Below are positions 1,336 through 21,066 of a stretch of DNA of 21,835 nt, in pieces. Source of the DNA: Candidatus Raymondbacteria bacterium RIFOXYA2_FULL_49_16 (GTDB lineage: Bacteria; Fibrobacterota; OXYB2-FULL-49-7; XYB2-FULL-49-35); contig MFYT01000105.1 in assembly GCA_001789205.1 (NCBI GenBank), positions 1 through 21,835 on the forward strand, in the 5' to 3' direction. The notes below the pieces were generated by a model, which was not told the DNA's origin, searched no databases, and saw nothing but the letters and a program-made list of their open reading frames with translations. Numbering within the stretch: the stretch's first letter is position 1; each line of letters begins with the position of its first letter. The position numbers were made by a program, and so were the translations under genes.

Positions 1336-3345
1336 ATGATACGACTCTATTATTATGGTATTATTCTTTTTACAGTCAGTCTGGTTTTTTCCCAACTACC
1401 CACGATAAGGGAAGTTGAAAAGAGTTTCGGAAAACCGGCTTTCTTCATTCCACGAACCACCACACCGCCTGTTATTGATGGCGACTTAAACGACGCGGTT
1501 TGGCAGGATATTCAAAGCTATCAACTCGACCATTTTGACGGGTGCAGCTCGCCTATAGAGGCCCCAACAACAGTCAAATTCCTATGCAATGACAGCGGCC
1601 TGTATGTTGCGGCATATTGCACGGAACCGCGCATGGACCTTGCCCTGTCGAGTGGTGTCTGGAATGGTGATATAGTGGGACTCTGTGTTGACCCGGACCA
1701 TACACACCCGAAAATGCCTTTGCTTGCCCGCCTGAAGATCAATCTCAATGGCCAGTGCGACCTTTCTGGCGCTGAGGTCCGTGTTACAAAGGGCAGTGAT
1801 CACTGGACATGCGAATTTTTTGTACAATGGAACCTGCTGTGGATTTCTCCGGACAACATTCCAACCATCATTGGATTCAATTTCTTTCGTATCAGGCCGC
1901 AGGTGGGGCTGACAAATCCATGCAATTGCATGGCTGCGCCCGCGGTTCAGCGGGTGACGAATCTTGCAAACAGCCGATATGGTGAGAATACGTCCCTTGC
2001 GCCATTTTGGCTGGATTACAAAAGACCTGTAGGCCCAAGTACCACCTATGATCCGTTTTCCTGGGGACCAGTAGAAGACGTCTACTGCCCTTGGCGCTTA
2101 GGCCACGCCATTATTGAGAGCGGGGTCATACCAACGCCGCCACCCCCTCTGGACAGCCTGTTCAGGATCCTATATAAGGAGGATTTTGAGAACGGCAGCA
2201 GCGGTATTTTTTCGTTGGGCGCCATAGTCGATGAAAATTATCTTGGTTCCATGAAAGGATACCGGCAGTCCGGAGGCTGGATAAGCGCCGGGGTCAGTAT
2301 TCGAGACCCAATGGATGTGACCGTTGTGGCTACCTGCAAGATAAGCTCAGGAAGGTTGAATGTGTATCCGCGTTCAGCTGACCAGCTCTTTCCCCACCTC
2401 CATGAGAACTGGGGGGAGTATAAAAGCTATGCATCAGACCAGCCTGCTAATCCTGTAAACTACGGCTATGACACCCATTCGGACAAGATGGCCATATATA
2501 CTGTGGGCCGTTTTGGAAAAACAACAGGCGGTTGGAGGCAGGTCACGAATTATTTCGGAGAGGCAACATCAACATCTGTTATGGCCCCTTCGGCAGGATG
2601 GAATATCTGCAGGTTAAGGCTGGAATTGAACGATGGCGGGCCCGCATACCAGAACCTGGTTTGGCACTGGTATGATAGCCGGCGGAATCATCTGGATATT
2701 CAATCATTTACTTTCGCTGGTGAGGCCCTGACAATAGGTGATTTTATCGTTTATAAGGGTCAGGATGTTGAACCACCGGATACGGTAACCGGGATAGCGC
2801 AGACCGACCAAGGTGATTCAGTGGTCATCACCTGGAATCCATCTCACGACAATGTTCTCACCGCATATTATGAAGTCATGAGCATCGAGGAGGGTACGCA
2901 TGATTCCGTCTCTATCCTATATGCGCACGATCTCCGCGCTGTTATTTCCAAGACTGCTACGGCAGGAAAGCAGATCGTTGTGATTGCGTGGGACCTAGAC
3001 GGTAATGCCTCCTCTCAGAAATATCCGACCTCGGTCAGCTCTATGGACCAGGCCGGTACTAGTTTGGTATTTACGGCCTTCCCTGTTCCTTCAAACCCGG
3101 CGGTGCGTTTGAATTTTACGATTCCAAGTTTTAAAGGAAACGCCCAGAATGTCCTTATCCAGATTTTCAATGTCCAGGGGAAATTAATAAATACGCTGGT
3201 ACGGAAAACCATGAGAAGCGGCGCGCACAGCATTGCCTGGCATAACAGTGACAATAGAGGCAATACGGTTCCTTCAGGTGTATATCTGGCCAGAATGAAC
3301 GTGATGGGCATGGAAAAGACAATCAAGCTGATAGTGACAAAATGA
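1336..3345 (+). CDS. Secreted CBM9-like binding protein with FnIII and type A sorting domain
   Basis: The start is set by the GGGAGGGG ribosome site and a clear signal peptide (residues 1-20, hydrophobic core then VFSQ). Residues ~38-235 match the carbohydrate-binding family 9 / DOMON pattern: PPVIDGDLNDAVWQD at the front, VKFLCNDSGLYVAAYC, GDIVGLCVDPD, and a closing WTCEFFVQW segment. A proline run (PTPPPP, ~270) leads into a ~200-residue beta-rich region resembling a LamG/laminarinase-like sandwich (starts FENGSSGIFSLG). A fibronectin type III-like domain follows at ~476-565 (PDTVTGIAQ, VVITWNPS). The last ~90 residues are a sorting domain with a divergent motif, PVPSNPAVRLNF rather than PNPFNPST, then IFNVQGKLINTLV, PSGVYLARM and IVTK. 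Likely role: extracellular glycan binding; no catalytic motif seen. It heads the tightly packed run of genes. Confidence 0.8.
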   Translation: MIRLYYYGIILFTVSLVFSQLPTIREVEKSFGKPAFFIPRTTTPPVIDGDLNDAVWQDIQSYQLDHFDGCSSPIEAPTTVKFLCNDSGLYVAAYCTEPRMDLALSSGVWNGDIVGLCVDPDHTHPKMPLLARLKINLNGQCDLSGAEVRVTKGSDHWTCEFFVQWNLLWISPDNIPTIIGFNFFRIRPQVGLTNPCNCMAAPAVQRVTNLANSRYGENTSLAPFWLDYKRPVGPSTTYDPFSWGPVEDVYCPWRLGHAIIESGVIPTPPPPLDSLFRILYKEDFENGSSGIFSLGAIVDENYLGSMKGYRQSGGWISAGVSIRDPMDVTVVATCKISSGRLNVYPRSADQLFPHLHENWGEYKSYASDQPANPVNYGYDTHSDKMAIYTVGRFGKTTGGWRQVTNYFGEATSTSVMAPSAGWNICRLRLELNDGGPAYQNLVWHWYDSRRNHLDIQSFTFAGEALTIGDFIVYKGQDVEPPDTVTGIAQTDQGDSVVITWNPSHDNVLTAYYEVMSIEEGTHDSVSILYAHDLRAVISKTATAGKQIVVIAWDLDGNASSQKYPTSVSSMDQAGTSLVFTAFPVPSNPAVRLNFTIPSFKGNAQNVLIQIFNVQGKLINTLVRKTMRSGAHSIAWHNSDNRGNTVPSGVYLARMNVMGMEKTIKLIVTK

Positions 3346-3368
3346 AATAAACAAAAAAAGGAGGCGCC

Positions 3369-6086
3369 ATGTTTAGATCAATATCCTGCATGTTCACACT
3401 ACTACTCGGTATGGCATATGTCACCTATGGTACTGTGATTATAGAACGATGGGGCATTGCCGGAGGGAAAAACCAGCATCCCACCCTTAGTTATACTACG
3501 ATCAGCAAAGCGCTTTCCGTTGATCTTGCGCCGCTGTCCTCCGCATCGGTAGTATACCGGGCGACCCTCTACACATCCATGAACGTGTGGAACGGCTGGG
3601 ATGGGGCAGCGCCACATGGACGAACTGCATATGCTCTTGACAGTGTTTTAATTTATAATAAAACTGGTGCGGGTGCTTCGGATTATTCATCTGTTCCACT
3701 TCAGCTTTTACCTCCTTACTATCGCAGCTTTGACATGACAGATGCAGTCAGGGGGTGGCTCAGCAGCAGCGGCAGCAACTATGGCCTTTATGTAAAACAA
3801 TTCCCCAATTTTGACGCATCGAAGAGCTATTTAGAGATAATGTATGAAGGGGATGCGGGCAGTCCACCGGCACAGATTACAGGTTTGCATGCATTTTACC
3901 GGGCAGGCCAGACATTTATTACATGGAATGAGATGCAGGACTGGGTAGGCAAGGATAACCCGACAACCTTGGAAATGTATGATATTATGGCAAACCGCGA
4001 CAGCATAAGTCCCCAGGAGGTCAGATATTATGTATTTCAGCATACATCTCCAATAACCGCATCCAATATAAAAGACGCGACCTTTTTGGAAAGCATCCGG
4101 CCCGTATCAATATGGAACCTTATGGATATCACAAATGATTGGCAGTGCGAACAGTGCCAGAACGGACTTTTGGCCACGTATGTACTCGAACGTTTCTCAA
4201 CTGATGAGGATGGCAACGGCACCAGATTACCGCGCGACAAAGGACTATACGTTCATGCCGTAACAAGCAATCAGAATTCGTATTACGCCGTGGTGACTGT
4301 CGTAAACGGCAAGGCGAATACGATCGATCTGAGCGCGGAGAACGTTGTCGGACCGATAAATGAAACCATTTCCATGACAGAACCTACATTTCAAGGCCTT
4401 GATACTGTCAGCTATGGCGGCGAGGTGGAGCATTTTATTCACTTTCTATCTCCGCCGTTCGCCAATATACCAGGCCCGGGTTTGTCATGGGATTTTCAGA
4501 CGCGAGCCCGCCAATTTAATGATGGATGGCACTATGTTAACTTGCGGACAAAAGTGATAAACAGGGGCGGGGCTTTGACTCTTGAATGCGCCTCGTGGGG
4601 TGGAGTGCGAAGCAACAGCGTTACCGGCTTTGGACAACCCATTAATAACGGAATAAAGATACGCACAAATGATCAATGGCCTCCAAATGGTTTTACCGGA
4701 TTGCATGAATGCCTGGGCACCTTCAGGTCGTGGCGCGATGGCAAAGTCCACAATTACGCTGCGCGTAGAATTATATCGTACGTGGGTTGGGCCGACAGGC
4801 GATGGGGCATAGACAGCAATCAGATCTATATGACCGACTACGAAGGCATGTGGTCCGTACGCTACCCCCAGGTGTTTGCGGCGCATTATATCAAAGGGCT
4901 TACTGATGCCGGACAAGTTAACCCATCCTTTACCTGGCAGCTTGGAAGCAGGCTCGACAGAGTATGGGGTCAGGAAGCGTGGGGAGTTAGCATGGCCGAT
5001 ACCATGATAAACGCATGGGACTGGTTTGATTATTCGAAGGCTTATTACACAGACTCTATCCATATGTCGCCCCTTGTCAGCCAACCTGGACCAAGTCATG
5101 ACTGGAAAGGCAGGGGTGACCGCGCATGGGGAGGCGAACCAAGGATGGTGGAAAATACGCAGAAATATAAGCAAGCCTTTGTTTTCTCATGGCGTTGCAG
5201 CAACTGTGGGCTGGATGCAGGATGGGTAGGACTCAACCAATCGCCAACGTGCTGTTCTAATTACCAGGGATTAAGGCATTCGTCCCCGTTTATGGCCTTT
5301 ACAAACAACACTCTTGACCAGGATATCGGCGATACTATGTGGCACAATGATACGATAGGCTATGGAGGAGACGGAAGTGGTCAGATAAATGGCTTCGCCT
5401 ATTTTGACAGTATTCGTGAAACGTCTACCAGTTTTTCAGTAAATCTGTTTTTAAATGCACCGTATCTGAGTGATTTTGCATGCACGCCGACGGTAAAGCG
5501 TAATTGCGGCCTTACGCTTGATACCGGTGCCCATGTTGATGCAACGCCACGGCGCATGCAGCAGTTCGAAGTGAATGCATGCGACACCTTTACGTGGAAT
5601 ATTGTGTACAATAGCGCTACGGTAGACAGTGGTGAAATAGTGGCCTCTAACAAGAATGTTGTGACGGTCCCTGGTGTATTCATCACGAAGGAAAAACGGA
5701 AGCTCACCTTGCTGTTGAAAGGGAGGAGCGACGGAGTGTGCACGATAAATGCCGCTGTGGAAAAAACGGAGCAAGCAAGTGAAGATATCGTGCTTCGCGC
5801 GTTCCCAGTTCCGTTTAATCCTTCAACAAGGATTTATTACACTGTTCCTCCGCATTCAAGCGTGCAGTGGGGAGGGGTAAAGGAAAAACGAGTTAGGATA
5901 GCAGTGTATGATGTTAAAGGGACATTAGTACGAGTGCTTGCCGATGGAGTACGGAACAGGGGAGGGTATACTGTGGATTGGAATGGCGTTGATCGTGACA
6001 ACAGGCAGGTGTCCACAGGCATGTATGTTGTGCGCATGAGCGCAGGGAAAACTGGTAAAATGATAAAAGTATTATTGGTAAAATAA
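3369..6086 (+). CDS. Secreted alpha/beta-hydrolase-family pseudoenzyme with DNRLRE-like, FnIII and sorting domains
   Basis: AAGGAGG at 3357-3363 and a signal peptide (1-21, ending VTYG) fix the start. Residues ~22-160 resemble a DNRLRE-like sandwich (VVYRATLY, SFDMTDAVRGWL, NYGLYV). A FnIII-like domain follows (ITGLHAFYRAGQTFITW), then a region colinear with the hydrolase core of the gene at 18538 (shared GTF(R/K)SW(R/N)DG and ID(S/T)N(Q/R)I). At the nucleophile elbow the paralogues read G-x-S-x-G; here it is IYMTDYEGMWSV (Q485-V497) and about six residues shorter, so the serine is gone. The position of the catalytic histidine reads FSWRCSNCG, giving C610, C613, C628 and C629. An extra CxxC (C260, C263) sits earlier. 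The TPRRMQQ module starts at T726 and the sorting domain (FPVPFNPSTRI ... STGMYVVRM ... LLVK) closes the protein. I infer a non-catalytic binding or scaffold role. Confidence 0.78.
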   Translation: MFRSISCMFTLLLGMAYVTYGTVIIERWGIAGGKNQHPTLSYTTISKALSVDLAPLSSASVVYRATLYTSMNVWNGWDGAAPHGRTAYALDSVLIYNKTGAGASDYSSVPLQLLPPYYRSFDMTDAVRGWLSSSGSNYGLYVKQFPNFDASKSYLEIMYEGDAGSPPAQITGLHAFYRAGQTFITWNEMQDWVGKDNPTTLEMYDIMANRDSISPQEVRYYVFQHTSPITASNIKDATFLESIRPVSIWNLMDITNDWQCEQCQNGLLATYVLERFSTDEDGNGTRLPRDKGLYVHAVTSNQNSYYAVVTVVNGKANTIDLSAENVVGPINETISMTEPTFQGLDTVSYGGEVEHFIHFLSPPFANIPGPGLSWDFQTRARQFNDGWHYVNLRTKVINRGGALTLECASWGGVRSNSVTGFGQPINNGIKIRTNDQWPPNGFTGLHECLGTFRSWRDGKVHNYAARRIISYVGWADRRWGIDSNQIYMTDYEGMWSVRYPQVFAAHYIKGLTDAGQVNPSFTWQLGSRLDRVWGQEAWGVSMADTMINAWDWFDYSKAYYTDSIHMSPLVSQPGPSHDWKGRGDRAWGGEPRMVENTQKYKQAFVFSWRCSNCGLDAGWVGLNQSPTCCSNYQGLRHSSPFMAFTNNTLDQDIGDTMWHNDTIGYGGDGSGQINGFAYFDSIRETSTSFSVNLFLNAPYLSDFACTPTVKRNCGLTLDTGAHVDATPRRMQQFEVNACDTFTWNIVYNSATVDSGEIVASNKNVVTVPGVFITKEKRKLTLLLKGRSDGVCTINAAVEKTEQASEDIVLRAFPVPFNPSTRIYYTVPPHSSVQWGGVKEKRVRIAVYDVKGTLVRVLADGVRNRGGYTVDWNGVDRDNRQVSTGMYVVRMSAGKTGKMIKVLLVK

Positions 6087-6104
6087 TCGTAAAAGGGGGC
6101 TTTC

Positions 6105-8276
6105 ATGAAGTCGATATCCTTGATCGTTTTAAGCATAGTATGTTACCAAATTTTTGCTGCGCAACCATCGGATGTAAAGGGTTTTTTCCGGGAAGGCCAG
6201 GCTTTCATTACCTGGGAAGAAGATAATTCGCAAACCGGCGAAAAATACAGGGTATATCGGAGCGCTTCTCAGATAACGGACATTAACAGCGCCGACCTTA
6301 TCGCCGAAGTAAATGAAGGCTCAAGCACGTGGCGGGACATGCATAAAAAAGACGGAAGCCTTGTTGATCGTTGCAGCGGTGACCAAATAATCGATAAGTT
6401 CGTTATATATGATGACAGCGTCCAGCTAGGCACCACAACAGGGCTTTTTGTTCATACCGTGCATGAAACTGTACAGACAAACTATTATTATGCGGTGACC
6501 ACGGTTGCCGGTGTTTCTGAAAACACTGTCATTGACGCTTCCAACACCTGCGGTCCCATAAACGAATTAAAACAACCCGCAGGAGCGGTCAGATACCTGA
6601 CGACAAGCGCGAGCGGTACCATAAAAGAATGGTATATCATGTGGTTGGATTACGCGCTTTTTAAAGAAAACTATATGGGTTATGCTTTTTCCGTCGCCCT
6701 TACCATGAGCTCATTCTCGCAGGGAGGGGCAATGCCCCGCTTATATCTTGACGGGATAGGAACGATGAACGTATGTGCAGCGAATTATTCCAATTACGGA
6801 CAAGGCGATTTGAGTGATCAGGGAATGCCTACATGGTATTTTGGCCATCATAAATCCCTTGATTATGATGGAACGTCCACCGTCGGATATGCTCTCAAAG
6901 ACACAATAGCCAACTATATTCAATATAGAATAATCAAGTCAGCCCTATGGGCAAGAAGAAAATACAATATCACTGATCCGAGGTTTAAAATGGAAGGTTT
7001 TTCCATGGGCGGCTCGGGTATGTATGGTTTTTTAATGGCATTTCCCTCTTTTGTCACCTATGCCGGCGCTCAGGAAGGCCTTACCCAATACCGGGTTCCT
7101 GGAATTAATGAAAATGGCGATACCATATGGGCAAGCTCTGCATGGGGAAATTACGGCCGCCCGAATTTCAGCGATCATTCCCAGGAAAATCCGGTAAAAT
7201 TCCTGCCTTTTAATGATCCTGATTATCCGGAACTTGACTGGGTAACACAATATAATGGGATGAATATCTACGACGCCAGGGATGCGGCGAATTTTTTAAG
7301 AATAAATACGGCCAAAAGTTTCGGGCTTTTAGCGGCCATTCATGGAGGCAGGGATGGTTCGATCCCTTATGCCCGTAATGGCGCGCATTTTGAGGAGTAT
7401 ATCAAAAATTCGAGGCATTGTTTTACCTATTATTATAAAGCAGAGGCAGGGCACAGTTCAGGACAGCTGCAAAGCAACGGGATGGGCGGACGTATACGAT
7501 GGGATGAAAGCAGACCTGGTTTTTCAAATGTGCCTCCCCGGATCGTTTATTTGTGGAACAATTACAATTCAGGATTGTCATATTATGGAACAGATACAAG
7601 CCGCGGATATTGCCTGGATGCAAAATGGGGCTGCATTGATGCCCCGATAGGGGGCCATAAAATAGCAGAGACAGACTCGTCATGGAGCATCCCGGTATTC
7701 GGAATTCCCCTGAGCAACGCTCCTGTTGGTTATACATTCGGAGATTATACACTGGATATTACGCCAAGAAATCTCCAGCAGCTTGAAGTGTGGCACGGGG
7801 ACACGTTTGTCTATACAATCACGGATACCGCCGATAATATGGAAGCTTCCGGCGAAATTATAGCCGACAGCCTCAATCTATTGCTGATACCGCAGGTGCC
7901 GGTACGGCTTAACGGTGCTATTGCAAAGGTTGTGTTAAAATCACGAAGCCCCACCACCGGAACAGGGGCATTGGGAAAAATGGATTTTATTAAAACCGGC
8001 ATTGCCATTACACCCAATCCTTTTAATCCTTCAACCATTGTCTCTTTTGGTATTGGCAGGAAATATAGTGTTCGGACATCCGGACAGATGAATATTTATT
8101 CAATGAATGGAAAAATTGTAAGGGTTCTTTCTGTTTCCAGCAGGATAAAGGATGGCTACCAGGTATGCTGGGATGGAAAGGACGGTTCAGGCAGAACCCT
8201 TGGAGCCGGTGTATATTTTATTTCCATTACTATTGATGGAAAAAACATTCACGAAAAGTTGGTATTATCAAAATAA
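6105..8276 (+). CDS. Secreted alpha/beta hydrolase (esterase-like) with FnIII and type A sorting domain
   Basis: Starts 18 nt after the previous gene, with AAGGGGG upstream and a signal peptide ending IFAAQ (~residue 19). The mature protein begins directly with a FnIII-like domain (DVKGFFREGQAFITWEED), matching the second domain of its upstream paralogue but lacking the DNRLRE-like part. The hydrolase core has a full triad candidate: nucleophile S300 in GFSMGGSG, acid D417 in HGGRDGSIPY, and H450 in EAGHSSG, in the normal order and spacing for the alpha/beta-hydrolase fold. A shared module begins TPRNLQQLE at T553. The tail is a sorting domain: ITPNPFNPSTIVSF, IYSMNGKIVRVL, WDGKDGSGRTLGAGVYF, LVLSK. 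Carboxyl-ester hydrolysis outside the cell, for example on acylated polysaccharide, is an inference; a peptidase of the prolyl-oligopeptidase type is a possible alternative. Confidence 0.82.
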   Translation: MKSISLIVLSIVCYQIFAAQPSDVKGFFREGQAFITWEEDNSQTGEKYRVYRSASQITDINSADLIAEVNEGSSTWRDMHKKDGSLVDRCSGDQIIDKFVIYDDSVQLGTTTGLFVHTVHETVQTNYYYAVTTVAGVSENTVIDASNTCGPINELKQPAGAVRYLTTSASGTIKEWYIMWLDYALFKENYMGYAFSVALTMSSFSQGGAMPRLYLDGIGTMNVCAANYSNYGQGDLSDQGMPTWYFGHHKSLDYDGTSTVGYALKDTIANYIQYRIIKSALWARRKYNITDPRFKMEGFSMGGSGMYGFLMAFPSFVTYAGAQEGLTQYRVPGINENGDTIWASSAWGNYGRPNFSDHSQENPVKFLPFNDPDYPELDWVTQYNGMNIYDARDAANFLRINTAKSFGLLAAIHGGRDGSIPYARNGAHFEEYIKNSRHCFTYYYKAEAGHSSGQLQSNGMGGRIRWDESRPGFSNVPPRIVYLWNNYNSGLSYYGTDTSRGYCLDAKWGCIDAPIGGHKIAETDSSWSIPVFGIPLSNAPVGYTFGDYTLDITPRNLQQLEVWHGDTFVYTITDTADNMEASGEIIADSLNLLLIPQVPVRLNGAIAKVVLKSRSPTTGTGALGKMDFIKTGIAITPNPFNPSTIVSFGIGRKYSVRTSGQMNIYSMNGKIVRVLSVSSRIKDGYQVCWDGKDGSGRTLGAGVYFISITIDGKNIHEKLVLSK

Positions 8277-8323
8277 GTGAATAGCCAAAGAGGCTTGGAA
8301 GAGTTCGAGAAAAGGAGGGTGGC

Positions 8324-10015
8324 ATGATATTAGCCTTGTTTGCATTGCTGCTGTTTTCCGCAACGCATCTTGAGGCCGCGAATATTACCGATGCCGCTGG
8401 CGGAAGCCGATTGATAGTTGTGGAGAACCGAACATTCACGCGTACCATTGATGTATGCCACATCAACAGCGGTACATCGGAAATTGTGAATGGAACAGTC
8501 ACATTCAGAATCTCGCGATTCTCCAATCCGGCGCCGAACATGCCGCTTATGGTCGGATTCCATTCATGGGGCGCTTCGATCGACGAAGTAGAAAGCAATG
8601 CGGGGTATGAATATGAGGGCAACGATCCCTTTTTGCTCATCACGTTTGAAGATGGGGGGGATGTGCCAGGGCCAACGTATGTGGAGGGGAACTGGTACTG
8701 GGGGAAAATCTGGCGCGACAGCGCCGGGAAGCGCTGGTCGGTTCCCTGGTTTCATAACGCAGTAGCTGAAATAATTAACGATATAAAATACGGCAGGTTT
8801 AGTGTCGCGGATTCCTGCGGCTGGCAAGGCCTGACCATAGACACGAACAGGATCTACGCAAAAGGCCATTCGATCGGCGGAACAGCGACCTTTCAATTCG
8901 CAGTCAAACACCCTGAGATTTTCGCCGCATTTCACGCACATTCAGGATGGACTACATATTATGGATATGACAATATATTTTTTAATCACGCGAACGGCTG
9001 CTGCGGCTGCTTTTGCGACATGATCGGCTCAATGGGCAGTTATCCGGCCATAGAATATGACCCAAATACAATGATAAAGGGAAATGCGGATCAGGCCTAT
9101 CTTGGAATTATGGAAGAGGAGTATGCCGCGGGTCTATATACGGATCTGGGCTGGTACTTTGGTCCGGACGGTTCCGGGGGATGGAACTTTCGCAATCCCG
9201 GTTTTCCGACCCCGTATGTTTTTTTTACAAACGGCGCAAATGACAACCCGGTAGCCCAGGGCGATAATGTGCAACCATCACTTGAGTTGCAGCGTCGCGG
9301 ATACACCTTCTACCGTCATTCAGGCGGCCATTCGGATCAAAATTTCATGCGGTACCGCCGCTTGCGGAATTTTCGCAAAGACCAGAGTTATCTGGCATTC
9401 ACCAACCGGGACTACGGCATAAATTCGCTTTCGCAGACAGGCTGGTTCAATGATCTCGACGTGCACGGCTGGGACCATACAACGATAAAGGATTCGGCGG
9501 GTTTTTATGAAGTGCGGCTCACCGGCATTGGCACCGCAGACATAACACTCCAACGGCTGCAGCGGCTGCAGCACGGAGCGGGGTCGATATATGAAGTTCG
9601 GCTGGACGGCGTGCCCGGCGATACGGTGACCGCGGATGAGTACGGGCTGATAACCATTCCGCACGTGAGCGGCGGCGCGCTCCTGCGGCTTGACTGCATT
9701 ACGTGCAATCCTGCGGTAGAAATAATACAGAAAAGCGAAAAGAAACCAGATGAGGGCATGGCCCTTTTGGCGAGCCCGAATCCATTTAATCCCTCAATCA
9801 CGATTTCATTAAAAGGTGGGAAAATAAATACCAAATGCCATGTAAGCATTTATTCTTTAACCGGAAAGCAGGTGCTTAGTAAAGGGCTTTCAACTTTTAA
9901 TATACACCAATCAGCGATTAAATGGGATGCGGCCGATCAACCAAGCGGTGTGTATGTTATCAAGGCGCAATCCGGGGATAGGGTACTGGTTAAACGGGTG
10001 ATATTGGTTAAATAA
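8324..10015 (+). CDS. Secreted alpha/beta hydrolase with GHSIGG nucleophile motif and sorting domain
   Basis: AAGGAGGG at 8312-8319 and the hydrophobic N-terminus (1-18, ending HLEA) support this start; an in-frame TAG at 8282-8284 rules out an upstream one. The n-region has no lysine or arginine, which is unusual for a signal peptide. Unlike its paralogues it has no DNRLRE-like or FnIII domain and goes straight into the enzyme. Triad candidates are S183 (GHSIGG), D307 (GANDNPV) and H336 (SGGHSDQN). A cysteine cluster, C226, C227, C229 and C231 (GCCGCFC), sits shortly after the nucleophile region. The shared module is present in divergent form (TLQRLQRLQHG from T408) and ends in CITC. The sorting domain reads ASPNPFNPSITISL, IYSLTGKQVL, PSGVYVIKA, VILVK. 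Substrate unknown; esterase activity is inferred from fold and triad. Confidence 0.82.
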   Translation: MILALFALLLFSATHLEAANITDAAGGSRLIVVENRTFTRTIDVCHINSGTSEIVNGTVTFRISRFSNPAPNMPLMVGFHSWGASIDEVESNAGYEYEGNDPFLLITFEDGGDVPGPTYVEGNWYWGKIWRDSAGKRWSVPWFHNAVAEIINDIKYGRFSVADSCGWQGLTIDTNRIYAKGHSIGGTATFQFAVKHPEIFAAFHAHSGWTTYYGYDNIFFNHANGCCGCFCDMIGSMGSYPAIEYDPNTMIKGNADQAYLGIMEEEYAAGLYTDLGWYFGPDGSGGWNFRNPGFPTPYVFFTNGANDNPVAQGDNVQPSLELQRRGYTFYRHSGGHSDQNFMRYRRLRNFRKDQSYLAFTNRDYGINSLSQTGWFNDLDVHGWDHTTIKDSAGFYEVRLTGIGTADITLQRLQRLQHGAGSIYEVRLDGVPGDTVTADEYGLITIPHVSGGALLRLDCITCNPAVEIIQKSEKKPDEGMALLASPNPFNPSITISLKGGKINTKCHVSIYSLTGKQVLSKGLSTFNIHQSAIKWDAADQPSGVYVIKAQSGDRVLVKRVILVK

Positions 10016-10020
10016 GGAGG
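10014..10020 (+). promoter_or_regulatory. Ribosome binding site overlapping a stop codon, supporting a GTG start
   Basis: AAGGAGG begins inside the TAA stop (10013-10015) of the hydrolase gene and lies 4 nt before GTG at 10025. The overlap suggests translational coupling of the two genes, and the spacing makes GTG the start, followed at once by a signal peptide. Confidence 0.7.
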
Positions 10021-10024
10021 ATTT

Positions 10025-12808
10025 GTGAGATTATCCATTATTTTTATTGTTTTATGTTTTTTTGGCCGGCCATATAGTCTTTATGTTGACATGGACCCGT
10101 GCCCGCGCATACCCCTGCGGCCCGGGGAAAGCCAGTATTTTCTTATCCATCTTTCACAGGCAAGCGTCTCGTGCAATGGCACCGTGAGCTTCAGCGGTCT
10201 TCCAGCTGGCCTGGTCTGCGCGCCTGAATCGCAGGATTACTCTCTTGCTCCAGGCAACGCAAAGCTTTTGATCTTTAATCTCTCCAGCACCAGATGGGGT
10301 GACACATTGGAAATAAGACCAACGATTACTGCCTCCGGCGGAGAGACGATCAATTTCCCTGATTCGTTCAAGACGAAAATAATGCGCGATTCGGTCTATT
10401 ATGAATCTTCCAGTTGGGGCAACAGAAGCCTGAAAAACAATCCGCTTGATGCCGCTGGACTCATGGCATATTATTCCTGCGGAGATGGCGGCTGTGTGGC
10501 TCCTTGTTACTCTGGCCATGGCTTTGATAGAAGCGTGGGTTTTCCTGGTTTTTGGAACGAAGGGGTCTGGATTCATGAAGGAGGCGTTAAAGGAAAATGC
10601 GTGTTTGGCCATAATGGTTTGCAATATCCCCGTCATAGGTGGTCAAAGATAGCATTCGAGGCAATGAATACTGTTGACAACAATAAAAGAGGAACAATCC
10701 TTTTCTGGTTCCGTAAGAATCTTCAGCGGGTGGCCGATATGTCCTATTCCGCCAACCCGGACTCCACATGGAAGATCGGGCCCGATGGAATGCAGGGCAG
10801 CAAAGGTGAAGCGCTTTTCGGACACTCATGGTCCCCGCAGCAGATATATAACTCACAAATCGCCGGCGGCAGTACATACACAAAGTGGAAACCGGGTTCC
10901 CACTCATTTATCGGACTACGGAGATTTAAAGCTCATGGCAGCGTGGCAGGATACCTTGAGGCATATTATCAGGCTATGCGAGGAGACATCTATACGGTGC
11001 AGGCGCCATACGAATGGTCAGAGGTATGGCGCCATGTTGCGGTAGTATGGGACGCGGACAGCGCAAAACTTGAGATATACTTAGATGATCAGCTTGCGAG
11101 CGGATCGCTCAGAAAAAACGGGGTTCCAACTACGGATACGGTTTTTTATGGTTGCCCATGGACAGTAGTCAAATTTAACAATTGTAACTTTACAATAGTT
11201 CAGGTAGGCGATGAAGGCGGCTTTAGCACTACTGACCGTGATGAGTATTATATTTATAACAAAGCCATGACGCAGACAGAGATACAGGCTAACCGGCAGG
11301 CTTCTATGGGAGCAGTGGCCGCTCCTGTTATTGCTCCAGCTGGCATACAGTTCCATGATTCTACAGTGGCTGCGATCAGGAGCTTATGGTCCAACGCGTC
11401 CATCCATTTTACCACCGATGGAAGCAATCCTTCAGAATCAGACCCGGTCTATTCAACGCCGCTTGTTTTTACCGGTTCGACCATGTTTAAAGCGCGGTCT
11501 TATCTGACTGGTTTTTCACCAAGTGAAATTGACAGTGCGTATTTTGAATGTCTCGGCCCTGATGTTGACAAACCACATGTCAGCTCTATATTGTCAATTA
11601 ATAATCCCCAGAAAATCCTTGTTGTTTTTGATGGCCCGGTGGAAAAAACCAGCGCGGAGAATGTAACGAACTATGAGATAAGCGGCGGGGTCTCCGTAAT
11701 ACAGGCTGCCTTAGACAGCGAACAGGTTGCCGTGACGCTGACTACCGATGCGCCGGTTGCTCAAAATACCATGACGATCAGGAATGTCGCGGACGCTTCA
11801 AATGCTTCGCTGCAGATGGATGATCTCTCCGGCGCGGCCATAACAGTTAAGAACCTTCCAGGACTGATGGGATATTATAATTTTGATGTTTTACGCGGTT
11901 ATTATGTGAAGGACCTCTCTTCGTCCGGGATTGACGGCACGGTCTTCAGCGACAATCTTTACCGTGAAGCCAATAGGGTTCCCGGGCATAGCGGCATGGG
12001 CCTGTATTTTGATGGAAATGACTTTCTTGACGTGACCGATTATACTACCGAAGGACTTTTAGTGAATAGGAATTCACCTCACAACGTCGATACATTCACC
12101 ATTGCTCTTTGGTTCAAGGTTCCGTTCGGAATTACCGGATACCACCGGTATTTGTTCCATAAATATTATTCCTACAGCGTAGCAGTTTCAGGCGGTAAAC
12201 TCTGCATGGGGAATTGGGACTGTAATCAGAGCGTTAATGTTCAGGTTAATGATGGCCTCTGGCACCATCTGGTGTACATAGTCCGTGATGGAGCGGCTAA
12301 TGGAACAAAGCTGTTTCTTGACGGGGGCGAAATCGCGGTCATGACGCTAAGTCTTCTTAATAATGAGTCAGCTGGCCTAAGCTATGGCATGGGCGGGGGC
12401 GCGGCTGGACAGCCGGCTTTTTTTGAGGGAGATATGGATGAGATTATGATGTTCAACAGGGCCCTAAGTAATGTTGAGATACTGGCACTGTATCATGATA
12501 GCACGGACCTGTCCGCAGTTATGGAAAAAGCCGATATAGTAGGAAGCAACGAAATGGTAATGAATGTTTCCCCCAATCCGTTTAATCCGAGCACGGTAAT
12601 CACCATTATTGGCCAGAAGGAAGTGTGTCAGAATATTGAGGTGGGTATATATGATTTGCAGGGAAAACTTGTTTACGCACGATCCATCGCGTCTGTTGCC
12701 AATTCACGGTTTATGTGGAACGCGGAGAAGCAGGCAAGTGGAATATATATACTTACGGTAAAGACCGGACGGCAAAAAATGACAAAAAGAATTGCTTTGT
12801 TAAAATGA
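10025..12808 (+). CDS. Large secreted two-LamG-domain protein with chitobiase-C-like domain and sorting tail (copy 1)
   Basis: GTG start after an ideal AAGGAGG; residues 1-19 form the signal peptide. Order of modules: an N-terminal beta domain (~20-130; PRIPLRPGESQYF, FSGLPAGL), a LamG/concanavalin-like domain (~145-425; ILFWFRKNLQ, WRHVAVVWDADSAKLEIYLDD, DEYYIYNKAMT), a chitobiase/hexosaminidase C-terminal-like domain (~434-510; IHFTTDGSNPS), an Ig-like domain (~510-610; ILVVFDGPVEKTSAENVTNY), a second LamG (~614-828; GYYNFDV, TIALWFKV, WHHLVYIVRDG, GDMDEIMMFNRAL), and the sorting domain (PNPFNPS at 850-856, ending ALLK). LamG domains usually bind carbohydrate or protein ligands, so a surface adhesin or glycan-binding role is likely. 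No catalytic residues are recognised. The module order matches the gene at 14022. Three cysteines (C152, C157, C161) near the first LamG are absent from that paralogue. Confidence 0.83.
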   Translation: MRLSIIFIVLCFFGRPYSLYVDMDPCPRIPLRPGESQYFLIHLSQASVSCNGTVSFSGLPAGLVCAPESQDYSLAPGNAKLLIFNLSSTRWGDTLEIRPTITASGGETINFPDSFKTKIMRDSVYYESSSWGNRSLKNNPLDAAGLMAYYSCGDGGCVAPCYSGHGFDRSVGFPGFWNEGVWIHEGGVKGKCVFGHNGLQYPRHRWSKIAFEAMNTVDNNKRGTILFWFRKNLQRVADMSYSANPDSTWKIGPDGMQGSKGEALFGHSWSPQQIYNSQIAGGSTYTKWKPGSHSFIGLRRFKAHGSVAGYLEAYYQAMRGDIYTVQAPYEWSEVWRHVAVVWDADSAKLEIYLDDQLASGSLRKNGVPTTDTVFYGCPWTVVKFNNCNFTIVQVGDEGGFSTTDRDEYYIYNKAMTQTEIQANRQASMGAVAAPVIAPAGIQFHDSTVAAIRSLWSNASIHFTTDGSNPSESDPVYSTPLVFTGSTMFKARSYLTGFSPSEIDSAYFECLGPDVDKPHVSSILSINNPQKILVVFDGPVEKTSAENVTNYEISGGVSVIQAALDSEQVAVTLTTDAPVAQNTMTIRNVADASNASLQMDDLSGAAITVKNLPGLMGYYNFDVLRGYYVKDLSSSGIDGTVFSDNLYREANRVPGHSGMGLYFDGNDFLDVTDYTTEGLLVNRNSPHNVDTFTIALWFKVPFGITGYHRYLFHKYYSYSVAVSGGKLCMGNWDCNQSVNVQVNDGLWHHLVYIVRDGAANGTKLFLDGGEIAVMTLSLLNNESAGLSYGMGGGAAGQPAFFEGDMDEIMMFNRALSNVEILALYHDSTDLSAVMEKADIVGSNEMVMNVSPNPFNPSTVITIIGQKEVCQNIEVGIYDLQGKLVYARSIASVANSRFMWNAEKQASGIYILTVKTGRQKMTKRIALLK

Positions 12809-12957: not shown

Positions 12958-13995
12958 ATGACATCTAAGGAAAGAGTCCGGAAAGCGATTGATCGTGAGA
13001 CTCCCGACAGAGTACCGGCCCATTCATCCATGACGCCGGTTGACGTCGAGTGGGTGAAGAAAAACTACGGTCTCTTGACCGAGGAGGAAGTCCTAACTTT
13101 CATGCTCGATGATTTCAGACGCGTTTATCCAGTATATATCGGCCCTGAACTGCCCATTTCCAAAAAAACCGGCGCCCAGATGACGGTGTGGCCCGGCGTT
13201 ACCTTTAAAGACGGCGATTATTCACTGGATGGCTTTCCTTTGGCCAATGCCACAATGAAGGACATTGAGAATTACATTTGCCCTAAAGTCGAATGGTTCG
13301 ATTTTAGCTCATTCAGTGTTCCTCCGGAAACAAGCAAAAACCATACGACAATTTGCGGAGAACCGTTTAGCCTATTGGACAAGGCCTATGATCTCATGGG
13401 TATGGAAAACATCATGATAAAGATGTTCGAAGCGCCAGACCTTATCCACGCGCTCATGGAAAAAATCACCCAAAGCAGGTATGATATGATCAAACGGATA
13501 TTGGAAACCGCACCATGGGTGGATATTTTTATAATCACGGATGAGTTGGGTACCCAAGAGAGCCTCTTGATGTCTCCTGAACAATTCCGAGAATTCAGTT
13601 TCCCGTACCATAAAAGGCTTGTTAACCTGATACATTCGTACGGCAAGCTTGTCTATTATCATTCCTGCGGATGCGTAATGCCCTTGGTTCCCGACCTTGT
13701 AGAACTTGGAATTGATATACTGGATAATCTGCAGCCAACGGCGAAAGGCAATGATCCATGGGCGATAAAAAGGAATTTTGGAAACAAACTTATTTTGCAC
13801 GTGCAGGTTGACGAACAAATCGTCATGAGGGAATGGAAACCAAAAGATGTTTATAGTAAATACAGAAAAATGATTGAAGACCTTGCTGTTGGAGGCGGTT
13901 TTATTATTTCAACCACATTTAGGAGCCAGGATACGCCAAGGGAGAATGTCGAGGCGCTATTACAGGCGATACGGACGCCATTAATAGACAATTAG
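12958..13995 (+). CDS. Uroporphyrinogen decarboxylase-family protein (MtaA/CmuA-like methyltransferase branch)
   Basis: The protein has no signal peptide and no sorting domain, so it acts in the cytosol. Family features are the N-terminus TSKERVRKAIDRETPDRVP, the HSCG motif (H235, C237, with a further C239), the segment LVELGIDILDNLQPTAKG, IKRNFGNKLILHVQVDEQ, and the closing GGGFIIS...QDTPRENVEAL. The arginine-rich N-terminal RxAGRY motif of true haem-pathway UroD is absent, so haem synthesis is unlikely. The H-x-C pair resembles zinc ligands of corrinoid-dependent methyltransferases such as MtaA, but I do not see a cysteine in the late GGGF segment where the third ligand would be expected, so methyl transfer is uncertain. 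At 345 residues the length is normal. The 7-nt-upstream ATG (12951) runs into a stop at once, which fixes the start. It separates two paralogous LamG genes. Confidence 0.88.
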   Translation: MTSKERVRKAIDRETPDRVPAHSSMTPVDVEWVKKNYGLLTEEEVLTFMLDDFRRVYPVYIGPELPISKKTGAQMTVWPGVTFKDGDYSLDGFPLANATMKDIENYICPKVEWFDFSSFSVPPETSKNHTTICGEPFSLLDKAYDLMGMENIMIKMFEAPDLIHALMEKITQSRYDMIKRILETAPWVDIFIITDELGTQESLLMSPEQFREFSFPYHKRLVNLIHSYGKLVYYHSCGCVMPLVPDLVELGIDILDNLQPTAKGNDPWAIKRNFGNKLILHVQVDEQIVMREWKPKDVYSKYRKMIEDLAVGGGFIISTTFRSQDTPRENVEALLQAIRTPLIDN

Positions 13996-14021: not shown

Positions 14022-16814
14022 ATGAAACACATTTTATTACTTGTTTGCATGGCCTATCAGGCGTATGGTCTTACTGTGGACATGGATCCGGTCCCGCGCA
14101 TTGTCCTGCGAGCCGGTGATTACCAGTATTTCCTGATCCATCTTTCAAACGCGAGTTCCTCATGCACTGGTACGGTAAGTTTCACGAATCTTCCTCCAGG
14201 GCTGTCGTCAATGCCGCAATCGCAGGATTTCACGCTTTCGCCCGGGGCCTCACAAGACCTTTCATTTAAAGTTTCCAGCAGCACATGGGCGCCGCCGGCC
14301 GTGATACGGCCCACGGTTACTGCGTCTGGCGGTGAGCAGGTCAATTTCCCTGATTCTTTGAAAACATATGTGCTGACAGATTCCTTTTTTATCGACAGCG
14401 TGGGTGCGGCAACGAGGCGGAGTCTAAAAAATACACCGCTTTTCCCCACAGGGCTTTTGGCCTATTATTCTGGCGGCGATGGCAACGACGGTTACCGCTA
14501 TAATTCGAGTGTGGGATACGCGGCTTTCTGGAATGAGGGAATATGGATTCACAATGGCGGTGTAAAGGGAAAGTGTGTGTTCGGCCATAATGGATTAGCG
14601 TATCCCCGGCACCACTGGTCAAAAATTGGTATGGAGACCCTTAATAATATCAGCCATCGGAGGGGAACCATCTTGTTTTGGACGCGCAAGCAGCTTCAGC
14701 AGAGCGGGGAAATCAACTATGCCCCGGGCTTCACTGGCGATCCATCCACAACCTGGCAGATAGGCCCTAACGACATGAGAGGCTCATCTGGAGAAGGTAT
14801 GTTCGGATATTCATGGTCACCTCAGCAGGTCTATTCCAACTGGTATTTGCACCAAGGAACCACTGTTTACAAGTCAGGATCCAATTCGTTCGTGGGATTG
14901 CGCCGGTACAAGAGTGCGGCCGGATTGACCAGCGGTTTTCTTGAAGCCACCTATCTCGCCATGCGGGGGGACATCTATAGCGTACAGGCGTTGTTCGACA
15001 GGCCCGACGAATGGCAGCATGTTGCGGTGGCATGGGACGCAGAGTCCGCCAAACTCGAAATATACGTGAATGGCGTTCTTCAAAGCGGCACAGTGAAGAA
15101 AAACGGTGTCCCAAGCACAGACACCATCTGGTACGGCGCGCCGTTTGACGTAGGTGTATTTTGCAATATCACTATGGCCTTTGTCCAGGTTTCAGACGAA
15201 GGCGGCTGCAACACAACGGACCGTGATGAACTATATATTTACAACAGGGCATTATCCGCGCAGGAGATACAGGCGAATATGCAAGCATCCATGGGTGGCC
15301 CAGTGCCCGTCCCTTCCATTTATCCGCATGGCAGGCAGTTCTACGATTCCCTTGCTGTACAAGTGCGCAGCGTATGGACCAATGCAACAATTCGGTATAC
15401 AATTGACGGCAGCGATCCAACGCTTGCTTCGCCAGTATATGCCGGTCCGATTGTCCTTACCGCATCGGCCCTGCTGAAAGTGCGTTCGTTTCTGACGGGT
15501 TTTGCGCAAAGTGCCGTTGACAGCGCCTATTTCGAGTGCCTGGGGCCTGATGTTGTTCGACCTGCGGTGTACACAGCTGTTTCAATAAATAATTCCAGTG
15601 AAATCATGGTCATTTTTACGAAACCTGTGGATAGCTTAAGCGCGATAAATCCCGCACACTATGCCCTGAGCGGCGGTATAGGGGTGACAAATGTCACCTT
15701 GGACAATGATCGACAGACAGCGAGGCTTGCGACAAATGCCGCAGTGACAAGCGCCACAATGATTAGTGTGCAAAACGTGAATGATGCCACGCATAGCGGG
15801 CTTGGTATGGATCCCTTGGTAGATTCGCTGGTGCGGGTAAAGTCGTTGCCGGGTCTTGTGGGGTATTGGAATTTTGACGTTTTGTCTGGATACACGGTAA
15901 AGGATCTTTCGCCTTCCCGGGTAAACGGCATGGTATTCAGCGACATTTACCGTGAGGCAACCTATGCGCCTGGTAAAAAGGGACAAGGGCTTTTGTTTGG
16001 CGGCGATGATTTTTATGATGTGACAGAGTATGCGGTTGAAGGCCGGCAAGTAAATTCCAGCCAGCCGCTCAATCTTGAGGCAGGCACCGTTGCCTTCTGG
16101 TTCAAGGCCGCTAGTTCAATGAACACGGGCGTGGGCTATCTTGTTTCCAAAAGCTATGCGTATAATCTCAGGATATACCACGGGACGCTCTATGTTGGCC
16201 ATGCTAATGCGACAGTGAGCACAAATACACAGGTCGTGGATGGCGCGTGGCACCATTGCGCGATTTCATTCAGCAATCATGTCAGCAATGGCACCGCGGT
16301 GTATGTTGATGGTGCGCTGATAAGTACGATTACTGCGTCGTTTCTCAATAACTCGGGAACAGGAGTCGGGTTCGGTGTGGGTGGAGGAGGATATGGCCAG
16401 CCTGAATTCTTCAGCGGAACCATGGACGAGATCATGGTCTTTAACAGGCCCCTGAACAGGGCAGAGGTCCTCTCGCTGTATAATGACAGCACGGAACTGG
16501 GCATGACTGCCGCGGAAAATGCTGCTACGGGCGCGTGCGTCGCATCAATCGCCGCGGCGCCCAATCCATTCAACCCGTCAACACATATATTCGTGCGAGA
16601 TATGCCAGGCGCGGCAGAACATATGCGGATCGCGCCAATGGTAAAGATTTATTCCATAAGCGGAAGACTTGTCACAACGCTGACGCAACATACAATACTC
16701 GGCACGCAATATGTGTATATATGGGACGCGAAGAACATGCCCAGCGGTGTATATGTCGTAAAGGCAGATGTTGGAAACAAGGCAATGGCGCGGTTGGTGA
16801 CTTTGATAAGATAA
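14022..16814 (+). CDS. Large secreted two-LamG-domain protein with chitobiase-C-like domain and sorting tail (copy 2)
   Basis: AAAGGGG (14009-14015) precedes the ATG and residues 1-16 are a signal peptide (ending AYG). Module order equals that of the gene at 10025: N-terminal beta domain (LTVDMDP, RIVLRAGDYQYF), first LamG (~145-425; TILFWTRKQLQ, WQHVAVAWDAESAKLEIYVNG), chitobiase C-terminal-like (~428-505; IRYTIDGSDPT), Ig-like (~505-608), second LamG (~610-825; GYWNFDVL, TVAFWFKA, WHHCAISFSNH, GTMDEIMVFNRPL), and sorting domain (PNPFNPS at 847-853, IYSISGRLVTTL, WDAKNMPSGVYVV, LIR). Similarity runs along the whole length, so the two arose by duplication. The likely role is surface or extracellular ligand binding. 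Its 3' end has a second partial copy at 18402-18518, evidence of recombination. Confidence 0.83.
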   Translation: MKHILLLVCMAYQAYGLTVDMDPVPRIVLRAGDYQYFLIHLSNASSSCTGTVSFTNLPPGLSSMPQSQDFTLSPGASQDLSFKVSSSTWAPPAVIRPTVTASGGEQVNFPDSLKTYVLTDSFFIDSVGAATRRSLKNTPLFPTGLLAYYSGGDGNDGYRYNSSVGYAAFWNEGIWIHNGGVKGKCVFGHNGLAYPRHHWSKIGMETLNNISHRRGTILFWTRKQLQQSGEINYAPGFTGDPSTTWQIGPNDMRGSSGEGMFGYSWSPQQVYSNWYLHQGTTVYKSGSNSFVGLRRYKSAAGLTSGFLEATYLAMRGDIYSVQALFDRPDEWQHVAVAWDAESAKLEIYVNGVLQSGTVKKNGVPSTDTIWYGAPFDVGVFCNITMAFVQVSDEGGCNTTDRDELYIYNRALSAQEIQANMQASMGGPVPVPSIYPHGRQFYDSLAVQVRSVWTNATIRYTIDGSDPTLASPVYAGPIVLTASALLKVRSFLTGFAQSAVDSAYFECLGPDVVRPAVYTAVSINNSSEIMVIFTKPVDSLSAINPAHYALSGGIGVTNVTLDNDRQTARLATNAAVTSATMISVQNVNDATHSGLGMDPLVDSLVRVKSLPGLVGYWNFDVLSGYTVKDLSPSRVNGMVFSDIYREATYAPGKKGQGLLFGGDDFYDVTEYAVEGRQVNSSQPLNLEAGTVAFWFKAASSMNTGVGYLVSKSYAYNLRIYHGTLYVGHANATVSTNTQVVDGAWHHCAISFSNHVSNGTAVYVDGALISTITASFLNNSGTGVGFGVGGGGYGQPEFFSGTMDEIMVFNRPLNRAEVLSLYNDSTELGMTAAENAATGACVASIAAAPNPFNPSTHIFVRDMPGAAEHMRIAPMVKIYSISGRLVTTLTQHTILGTQYVYIWDAKNMPSGVYVVKADVGNKAMARLVTLIR

Positions 16815-18537: not shown

Positions 18538-21066
18538 ATGAGATATTGCATCATCATTTTTTTGATTGCGGCCGCGACCCATGCCGCTCTTTCCACTCGC
18601 AGCTTCACAGACCAGCAGAACATGGGCTCTGATCCACAGAAGCTTACCTATTCCGCCGGAATCATCACCGTTGACCTTTCAGCCATTGCAGGCGCGGAAG
18701 TATACCGCGCCATGCTTTACCCGGACCGGTACACCAACGGCGGTTACATGCAGACCGCCTACTGCCGGCAGAATATCATTATCACCACGGCCACAGGCGA
18801 TACGCTCCGGCTGATGCCGCCGCGCCATCTCATGCTGGATGTCACTCAGGCGGTCCAGGCTGCTGTGGGTTCTGGGACGCTTACCTTGAACGTGCGCAAT
18901 GCTGCAGGACTCGGCAGCGGAAACAAGGCCATCCGCCTGGACGTGACGTGCAATCGCGCCGCTCCGGCAGCCATTGGGCAAGTCACGGGCGCAGCCGCAA
19001 GATTTCAAGACGGCGATGCCATGATCACGTTCATGGAGGTCAACCCTCCTTTGACAGATACGGCAATGCAATGTTCGCTTATGCATGCGGCATTTTTAAA
19101 TCTTGATGCCGGGGACATCATACGTTACAGAATTTATCGCTCGACTCTTCCGTTAACTTCCGAGGCAGCAGTGCAATCGGCTGAATTTGTTGACGAGATA
19201 TTGCCTCTTTCCATGTGGGACCATGATTTTTACGGCATCAATGAGGGGTATCATGGATGCAAGAACTTTCCCGTTCCTGCGATCCGCTATCCCGTGAATA
19301 ATCTTATGCTTCCGCCGGCCGGAACCGGAATATATGTGAACCGGTTCAAAAGCGCGGGCGCGGAGACAGCTTACTATTTAGTCAGCCATACTATAAACGG
19401 CGCGGAAGATTTTTCCTCGCTGAATCAAGGGGCAAATGCAACAGGTTCAGTTGAAGAGGCGCCGGGCAAGGGAATGGTCCTGCTCAGGGCTGTCCAGAAC
19501 AGCATCGGCATTTCAGGGGCGCAGGGCAATTCAACAGGGTATTATTATGTACGCTGGGAAAGTTCTCCAAATGCCAATCTACCCGGCACACCCCATAATT
19601 ATTTAGTGGCCTTGCCGCCTTCTTCAATAAGAAGCTCAAACTTCCCCGTGGCGCTTATGCTCCACTGCTGGGGCGGATCCATGACCAGTGGGTATGGCTG
19701 GTGGTATCGCGCTGACGAAGGCTCCATGCTTGTGTCAACAATCCAAAATCCTTATGACTGGTGGACGGCTTATCATGAAAACCACGGAACATTCAAATCC
19801 TGGAATGATGGCACAGTACAGCCTTTTACGCAGATAAGGACGCTCTCTTTTCTTCATGATTTTGTTAAGGAACATTACAGCATAGATACAAATAGAATCC
19901 TTTTGGCCGGTCTTTCCATGGGCGGCTCCGGCGCCTCCATGTGGGGCCTGCGCAGCGGTCATATTTTCTCTCATATCATTTCCTGGGTTGGCGTGCATAT
20001 CGCCCGGGAGACGCCGGGTTATTACGGCTCTTACAGCAGCATGTTTGGTGACACATCATGGCACTGCGGTTATTCTAACGAGGGGCTTATTCGTTTCGGC
20101 TATCCAGCGATCCGCCCCGAAGACAATGTGGATGTGTGGGATTATTGGGACAATGAGAAGTGGCTGCGCGATAATCCAAAAGTGGAAACACCCTGGATGT
20201 CTCACGCCAATGGCAAGAATGACGGCGGTATTGGCTGGCCCCAGGCATGGAAAAACACACGGTCCCTGATAGACACAAAATGTCCCTATAATTTTAGCTG
20301 GGGCCAGGGCGGACACGGCGAGCGTGCCCAGCTGATCGACGGAACCGACCGCGTGAGCGGCCTGGATTTCAGGCTCAACCAGTCCCTGCCGGTTTTTACC
20401 AGTTGTACGCTGGACCGTAATCTGGGAGCTACGCCGGATGCGGCGGATTCATCGGGCCAGACAAACCGTTATTTCAAGTGGGACATCAATACGGTTGTTG
20501 ATGAGCCATTGCAATGGGAGATGACGATGTGGCTCATCGGGAGCGCTCCGGCGGCGACCTGTACGGCGGATCTGACGCCGAGGAGATTGCAGCAACTCAT
20601 GCACGGTCCGGGTTCGACTTATTCATGGCAGTATTTGGAAGGGGCTACCGAGCTTGCAAACGGTAATGCAGTTGCCGGCAGCAACGGGATCATTACGATA
20701 ACAGGTTTACAGATATCAAAGACGCAAAGGACAATTAAAATATCATGCGACAACTGCGTTACCGGAGGCGAATCCAGGATCGGTGGTTATATCCCGGTGT
20801 CTTTATTTTCCATTGTTCCGAATCCGTTCAATCCTTCGACCAGTATTTCCTTTACTTGTGATGGAAAACAGCAGGTCAGGCTTGCCGTATACGATTTGCG
20901 CGGACAATTGGTCCGGAGTTTGAAGTCCGGCATTGTGTCTGGGAGTGTGAATGTTGTTTGGGATGGCAGGGACAGACATGGTAAAGGGTGCTCCACCGGA
21001 ATATATGTATTTTATCTTAATTCCGGGAAGAGAGTGATTACTCAAAAGGCGATTCTTCTAAAATAG
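18538..21066 (+). CDS. Secreted alpha/beta hydrolase (esterase-like) with DNRLRE-like, FnIII and sorting domains
   Basis: With the start at 18538 the protein is 842 residues and opens with a signal peptide (MRYCIIIFLIAAATHA). Residues ~20-140 resemble a DNRLRE-like sandwich (VYRAMLYPD, LMLDVTQAVQAAV), followed by a FnIII-like domain (RFQDGDAMITFME). The hydrolase core carries S460 in GLSMGGSG, D562 in GKNDGGIGW and H593 in GQGGHGER, a complete triad in the right order. The TPRRLQQ module starts at T680 and ends in CDNC. The sorting domain reads IVPNPFNPSTSISF, VYDLRGQLVRSL, WDGRDRHGKGCSTGIYVF, ILLK. It has the same architecture as the gene at 3369, which lacks the serine and histidine; the two are a useful active/inactive pair. 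Extracellular ester hydrolysis is inferred; the substrate is unknown. Confidence 0.84.
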   Translation: MRYCIIIFLIAAATHAALSTRSFTDQQNMGSDPQKLTYSAGIITVDLSAIAGAEVYRAMLYPDRYTNGGYMQTAYCRQNIIITTATGDTLRLMPPRHLMLDVTQAVQAAVGSGTLTLNVRNAAGLGSGNKAIRLDVTCNRAAPAAIGQVTGAAARFQDGDAMITFMEVNPPLTDTAMQCSLMHAAFLNLDAGDIIRYRIYRSTLPLTSEAAVQSAEFVDEILPLSMWDHDFYGINEGYHGCKNFPVPAIRYPVNNLMLPPAGTGIYVNRFKSAGAETAYYLVSHTINGAEDFSSLNQGANATGSVEEAPGKGMVLLRAVQNSIGISGAQGNSTGYYYVRWESSPNANLPGTPHNYLVALPPSSIRSSNFPVALMLHCWGGSMTSGYGWWYRADEGSMLVSTIQNPYDWWTAYHENHGTFKSWNDGTVQPFTQIRTLSFLHDFVKEHYSIDTNRILLAGLSMGGSGASMWGLRSGHIFSHIISWVGVHIARETPGYYGSYSSMFGDTSWHCGYSNEGLIRFGYPAIRPEDNVDVWDYWDNEKWLRDNPKVETPWMSHANGKNDGGIGWPQAWKNTRSLIDTKCPYNFSWGQGGHGERAQLIDGTDRVSGLDFRLNQSLPVFTSCTLDRNLGATPDAADSSGQTNRYFKWDINTVVDEPLQWEMTMWLIGSAPAATCTADLTPRRLQQLMHGPGSTYSWQYLEGATELANGNAVAGSNGIITITGLQISKTQRTIKISCDNCVTGGESRIGGYIPVSLFSIVPNPFNPSTSISFTCDGKQQVRLAVYDLRGQLVRSLKSGIVSGSVNVVWDGRDRHGKGCSTGIYVFYLNSGKRVITQKAILLK

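Follow-up and report, generated by a model that had tools for sequence, protein, structure and literature searches.

An esterase-fold protein without a catalytic serine in a Candidatus Raymondbacteria genome: a probable secreted pseudoenzyme with serine-less relatives in Planctomycetota

Within the alpha/beta-hydrolase fold, it is in animals that pseudoenzymes are best known. The neuroligins, neurotactins and gliotactins combine a cholinesterase-like alpha/beta-hydrolase fold and an altered triad with a non-enzymatic role at the cell surface (PMC8387733). Here we describe a bacterial protein, P0001, whose likeness to these proteins is one of kind and not of membership, theirs being a different, eukaryotic family concerned with adhesion and signalling. 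The fold of its central domain instead matches that of esterase D / S-formylglutathione hydrolase and of CE1-type feruloyl and acetylxylan esterases (Z 14-18; Foldseek), yet while those esterases carry a Ser-His-Asp triad and a GxSxG nucleophile elbow, P0001 is without the serine and the histidine. A literature search found no bacterial esterase-fold pseudoenzymes in polysaccharide loci and no description of a bacterial secreted set of such a kind, which is weak evidence of absence. A further point of comparison is provided by the DNRLRE proteins, to members of which the alginate-binding module CBM96 is ~30% identical (PMC9971899); the N-terminus of P0001 matches the NCBIfam DNRLRE model weakly (E 0.0016), and at 18.6 bits falls below the curated cut-off of 34.

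Architecture of P0001 and its altered active site

The window analysed, a stretch of 21,835 nucleotides, corresponds to contig C105, one of the 112 contigs of a 5.43-Mb genome; P0001 with its parts, the genes 1336-3345, 6105-8276 and 8324-10015, and the paralogue at 18538 all lie on its forward strand. The P0001 gene (3369-6086) encodes 905 amino acids without an internal stop. A signal-peptide-like N-terminus is followed by a DNRLRE-like domain (3501-3863; residues 45-165) that also aligns in the serine-less relatives described below, a domain delimited by alignment which we name FN3-like by inference (3870-4373; residues 168-335), a degenerate alpha/beta-hydrolase domain recognised by the match of its model to esterases (4374-5303; residues 336-645), a C-terminal TPRRMQQ module common to the hydrolase family (5304-5738; residues 646-790), and a FlgD/T9SS-like sorting tail resembling FlgD-Ig and Por_Secre_tail (5790-6083; residues 808-905). 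The tail scores 30.4 bits against FlgD_ig (cut-off 27) and 15.5 against Por_Secre_tail (cut-off 27), with TIGR04183 likewise below its cut-off; P0001 is a candidate cargo of type IX secretion.

The preliminary description of this DNA concerned positions 4821-5260, which correspond to residues 485-631, and claimed that about six residues are missing exactly at the nucleophile elbow with the frame unbroken. BLASTP, MAFFT and HMM alignments agree on this: the six-residue gap sits after IDSNQIYMTDYE, at the place where the paralogue P0002 (18538) has GLSMGGSG, so that the elbow region of P0001 reads IYMTDYE------GMWSV. What stands there is D490-Y491-E492-G493 (4836-4847), the serine column falls on E492 or the gap, and a GxSxG elbow with its serine is not present. 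The reported replacement of FSWGQGGHGER by FSWRCSNCGLD (5184-5216; residues 606-616) is equally clear, His593 of P0002 aligning with Cys613 of a CxxC motif, and Cys610, Cys613, Cys628 and Cys629 (the latter pair at 5250-5255) occupy the positions originally given for them. The acid of the triad may survive as Asp584 (5118-5120), a candidate remnant indicated by one alignment and by the strand register of the model, but an uncertain one, the acid column being Asp578 in a second alignment and an arginine or unaligned in a third.

Both catalytic changes thus stand, but they are not the only two, as further segments of the active site are altered: LHC-WGG has become LECASWGG, VGVH has become GLTD, GYP is deleted and NGxNDxxIGWPQ is scrambled. 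P0001 keeps 27 of 91 invariant hydrolase residues (30%), while by a leave-one-out count each of nine close paralogues keeps at least 91% of those invariant in the others. Consequently, with the oxyanion loop and the VGVH and GYP segments altered or deleted as well, the active site appears eroded as a whole and not struck by a single lesion. The accompanying claim that the flanking domains, the TPRRMQQ module and the tail are all kept holds for the tail, which alone is near background identity (33% versus 38%); the N-terminal, FN3-like and C-terminal modules are, like the hydrolase domain, only 22-28% identical to the paralogues.

An AlphaFold model of P0001 (mean pLDDT 71.5) keeps an alpha/beta-hydrolase core, with a central beta-sheet and flanking helices in hydrolase order, and its residues 338-637 match 3s8y with Z 17.7 (244 residues at 3.2 A), this being a structure of the esterase D / S-formylglutathione hydrolase type; the P0002 model matches esterase structures with Z 20.9. 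When the two models were compared by their strand and helix registers, strand 449-459 of P0002 was seen to lead to Ser460 and an 11-residue helix, whereas strand 486-489 of P0001 leads to a loop and a helix of 5 residues. Confidence in the hydrolase domain of the P0001 model is moderate, and its input alignment consisted mostly of active homologues, favouring their fold. The sequence is therefore compatible with a hydrolase fold, short of proof, since the model was built on homologues.

Paralogues, serine-less relatives and the origin of the loss

P0001 lies within a run of genes on the same strand. From 1336 to 12808 these are separated by short gaps, of 23, 18, 47 and 9 bp, and a number of their products end in FlgD-Ig/Por_Secre_tail-like sorting domains. 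Upstream is a gene with a CBM9-like N-terminus (1336-3345). Downstream follow the paralogue P0003 (6105-8276), with Ser, Asp and His intact, and the hydrolase P0004 (8324-10015), with GHSIGG and an intact triad. Further along, the active-type paralogue P0002 (18538-21066; GLSMGGSG, NGKND and GGHG) has the same architecture as P0001 and is 24% identical to it over most of its length. Other features of the window include a cysteine-rich loop, CCGCFC, at residues 225-231 of P0004, inside an active-type hydrolase domain, and two similar large proteins (10025-12808 and 14022-16814), with Laminin_G_3 and CHB_HEX_C_1 domains, whose genes flank a URO-D family gene (12958-13995).

A family profile search of the same genome found about fifty members. 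The catalytic columns were read in 54 family proteins counted as distinct, P0001 included, and the serine is kept in 53/53 of the others, leaving P0001 (E/gap, D, C) as the sole exception; aspartate and histidine are also in the aligned columns of those 53, except in two. The presence of more than 50 secreted alpha/beta-hydrolase paralogues in one 5.4-Mb genome, many with a TPRR(L/M)Q or TPRNLQ module, is in itself a striking expansion. The block around 6105 is duplicated on contig C45 (L062): the terminal part of the first gene and a homologue of P0003 are found there, but a different gene of 503 aa takes the place of the 1336 gene and P0001.

No match to P0001 was found in other genomes of its own phylum (the 60 nearest, and in a second search 167 genomes counting its own), a scan of IMG/VR gave nothing, and no close orthologue was found in any search. 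A conserved-peptide scan of one genome per species over 84,980 species recovered 35 relatives, and all that were read retain the active-site serine, once within a degenerate ATSDG elbow. Homologues read in other phyla, genome G329 of the Planctomycetota excepted, also keep the serine, motif variants aside, and the triad is intact in those checked from Verrucomicrobiota, Acidobacteriota and Planctomycetota other than G329. When a profile of the serine-less proteins was run against Verrucomicrobiota, Acidobacteriota and relatives of G329, with only 2-3 candidates per genome scored at first, all hits with aligned catalytic columns were found to keep Ser-Asp-His, though serine-less copies may occur there too. 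A single in-frame TAG, placed immediately ahead of the hydrolase half, splits one homologue from the Acidobacteria (L095 3389-5884 / L139 886-3381); a sister copy (L148) is intact.

The exception, G329, was the one genome among 392 of Planctomycetota with much better matches to P0001 (35% over 107-493, E 5e-54). It yielded 24 candidates, and of the 19 proteins read one has an intact triad, one is cut by the end of its contig and the rest are without the serine; G329 holds at least 16 serine-less relatives, several of their genes lying side by side. Their elbows read, for example, GIGAWGMW, WGQFAGWA, LSSGWAW, PGGDGAVM and GCRGGASG. Across the serine-less set (16 proteins of G329 and P0001), 0/17 have serine at the serine column, compared with Ser, Asp and His in 17/17 active homologues. 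Loss of the serine is consequently not unique to the assembly containing P0001, a point on which the preliminary description had made its reading depend. The G329 proteins, which rank near the top of the full-length matches to P0001, share with it the domain order, the absence of serine and histidine at the catalytic columns, the W533- and D435-type positions and the TPRR module. They differ from it in that no FlgD/T9SS-like tail was seen in the sequences read, the elbow is of variable length, a CBM9 domain is fused to three of them, and neither CxxC nor CC occurs near the histidine site of those read.

This last difference bears on an earlier suggestion, that the cysteines of P0001 mark a metal- or disulfide-stabilised scaffold. 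We reject a conserved motif of this sort, as the serine-less relatives have no CxxC or CC near the lost histidine and the total of cysteines in P0001 is ordinary (12 after residue 22, compared with 10-14 in nine close active paralogues). In a secreted protein these cysteines could make local disulfides, but nothing points to a conserved metal site.

Members of the serine-less set share on their part 27.9% identity in the hydrolase domain, 35.8% in the N-terminal domain, 36.9% in the FN3-like domain and 33.5% in the C-terminal module, the corresponding values among active proteins being 47.6%, 25.2%, 34.3% and 39.7%. The drop is greatest in the hydrolase domain, suggesting that constraint has been lifted mainly there. 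Four residues are specific to the serine-less set (E338, D435, R466 and W533), and no serine, histidine or cysteine is newly conserved in the hydrolase domain of the 17 proteins.

As to where P0001 belongs, its grouping with the active paralogues encoded in the same genome is rejected (p-AU 0.002 in one tree, which included external relatives; dlnL 116 in another), with the caution that its placement involves long branches. The trees put P0001 outside the active clade, and on this ground we reject the idea that it arose recently as a dead duplicate of its neighbouring paralogues. P0001 would instead stem from an ancient lineage within an esterase family that spans several phyla and is built of DNRLRE-like, FN3-like and alpha/beta-hydrolase domains and a TPRR(L/M)Q module. 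A full-length tree unites it with the G329 set (support 79/79), and over the full length it mostly resembles serine-less proteins more closely than active ones, a signal that comes mostly from the N-terminal half. A single ancient loss common to P0001 and the G329 set is possible; it is unproven, because trees of the hydrolase domain or the N-terminal domain alone neither confirm nor reject the grouping (p-AU 0.2-0.44 for either placement). The same indecision of the single-domain trees, together with the different elbow lengths of serine-less subgroups, leaves room for independent losses, in which case the N-terminal half and long branches would account for the grouping. Given the full-length tree, even at its modest support, and the pattern of full-length similarity, we regard independent loss as a serious but somewhat doubtful alternative, and one compatible with the explanation of function that we favour.

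Proposed role and competing explanations

In three of the serine-less G329 proteins (L180 370-3291, L218 1814-4906 and L222 1758-4793) the N-terminus is formed by a CBM9_1 domain that scores above its Pfam cut-off. The N-terminus of the gene directly upstream of P0001 (1336-3345) is homologous to these domains by BLASTP (E 2e-9, 28% over 170 columns), scoring 49.3 bits where shuffled controls reach at most 25.8, though Pfam detects no domain in it. When two elements are fused in one phylum and lie side by side in another, this is classically read as a sign that they share a function. The surroundings of the serine-less genes in G329 furthermore include genes for another CBM9 protein, a DUF2961 protein and Gfo/Idh/MocA oxidoreductases. 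Together with the weak DNRLRE match, these associations favour glycan binding by P0001 over a role as partner to an enzyme, and they lend indirect support to the earlier idea of a binding subunit, which is plausible, the link to glycans being by association only.

By a narrow balance of probability, then, we take P0001 to be a maintained secreted pseudo-hydrolase, directed to the surface and probably glycan-binding. The nucleophile elbow and the catalytic histidine would have been lost in its branch while the fold was kept, and the protein presumably does not hydrolyse esters. The face that once held the active site, together with the N-terminal domain, may bind a glycan or another surface polymer, and P0001 could thereby serve as a binding module that works alongside the CBM9-like protein and the active esterases of the same gene run.

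A different reading of the same neighbourhood is that P0001 binds, regulates or scaffolds the active esterases directly downstream (6105 and 8324), with which it shares a strand, short gaps of 18 and 47 bp, a related architecture and sorting tails. However, the duplicated block on C45 encodes a protein closely similar to that of 6105 but no P0001, which speaks against an obligate partnership of P0001 and P0003, and the serine-less genes of G329 often adjoin each other rather than an active copy. We therefore consider this reading improbable.

That P0001 is a decaying gene which has merely not yet acquired a stop is suggested by the loss of most of its invariant hydrolase residues, but is much harder to reconcile with its open frame. 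Its terminal branch carries 1.7-2.2 changes per site, and there are many length differences from P0002, yet 905 codons remain open. In simulations of neutral decay 0/60 runs stayed open even at 80% identity, with a mean of 9 stops at that identity and 33 at 25%. In addition, 92% of the sorting-tail invariants are kept, and there are numerous relatives, likewise with open frames, that have undergone a comparable loss. A dead gene is accordingly unlikely, and decay in this sense very much so. The preliminary reading of a maintained pseudoenzyme is borne out by these observations, by the absence of an active-site serine and histidine, by the hydrolase core of the model and by the serine-less relatives in another phylum; judged from its sequence, P0001 would qualify as a pseudoenzyme, having lost its catalytic residues in a gene that appears intact and maintained.

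Haloalkane dehalogenases have an aspartate nucleophile at the equivalent place, and the acidic residues at the elbow of P0001 could suggest that the fold now houses another functional active site, using Asp490 or Glu492 as nucleophile or a chemistry based on Cys613; this is highly improbable, as no histidine is left at the catalytic position, the acidic residues and cysteines do not recur in the serine-less set, and E338, D435, R466 and W533 form no recognised catalytic pair. Nor is any Ser/His pair newly conserved in the set, as might be expected had another serine and histidine come to form a working triad, the outcome that had been named beforehand as contrary to a pseudoenzyme.

Returning to the glycan-binding pseudo-hydrolase, we tentatively propose, as a hypothesis that may well need revision, that P0001 and its relatives represent a family of secreted alpha/beta-hydrolase pseudoenzymes in at least two bacterial phyla, with at least 16 copies in G329, in which an esterase fold has been turned into a non-catalytic glycan-binding module, the elbow repeatedly eroded and a CBM9 joined to it. 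If this is true, the family would constitute a natural experiment on the passage from esterase to binding protein, in which the elbow itself is eroded and one member stands beside more than 50 intact copies. It would also warn annotators that homology to an 'esterase' need not mean activity, and P0001 and its serine-less relatives offer testable candidates for new carbohydrate-binding modules.
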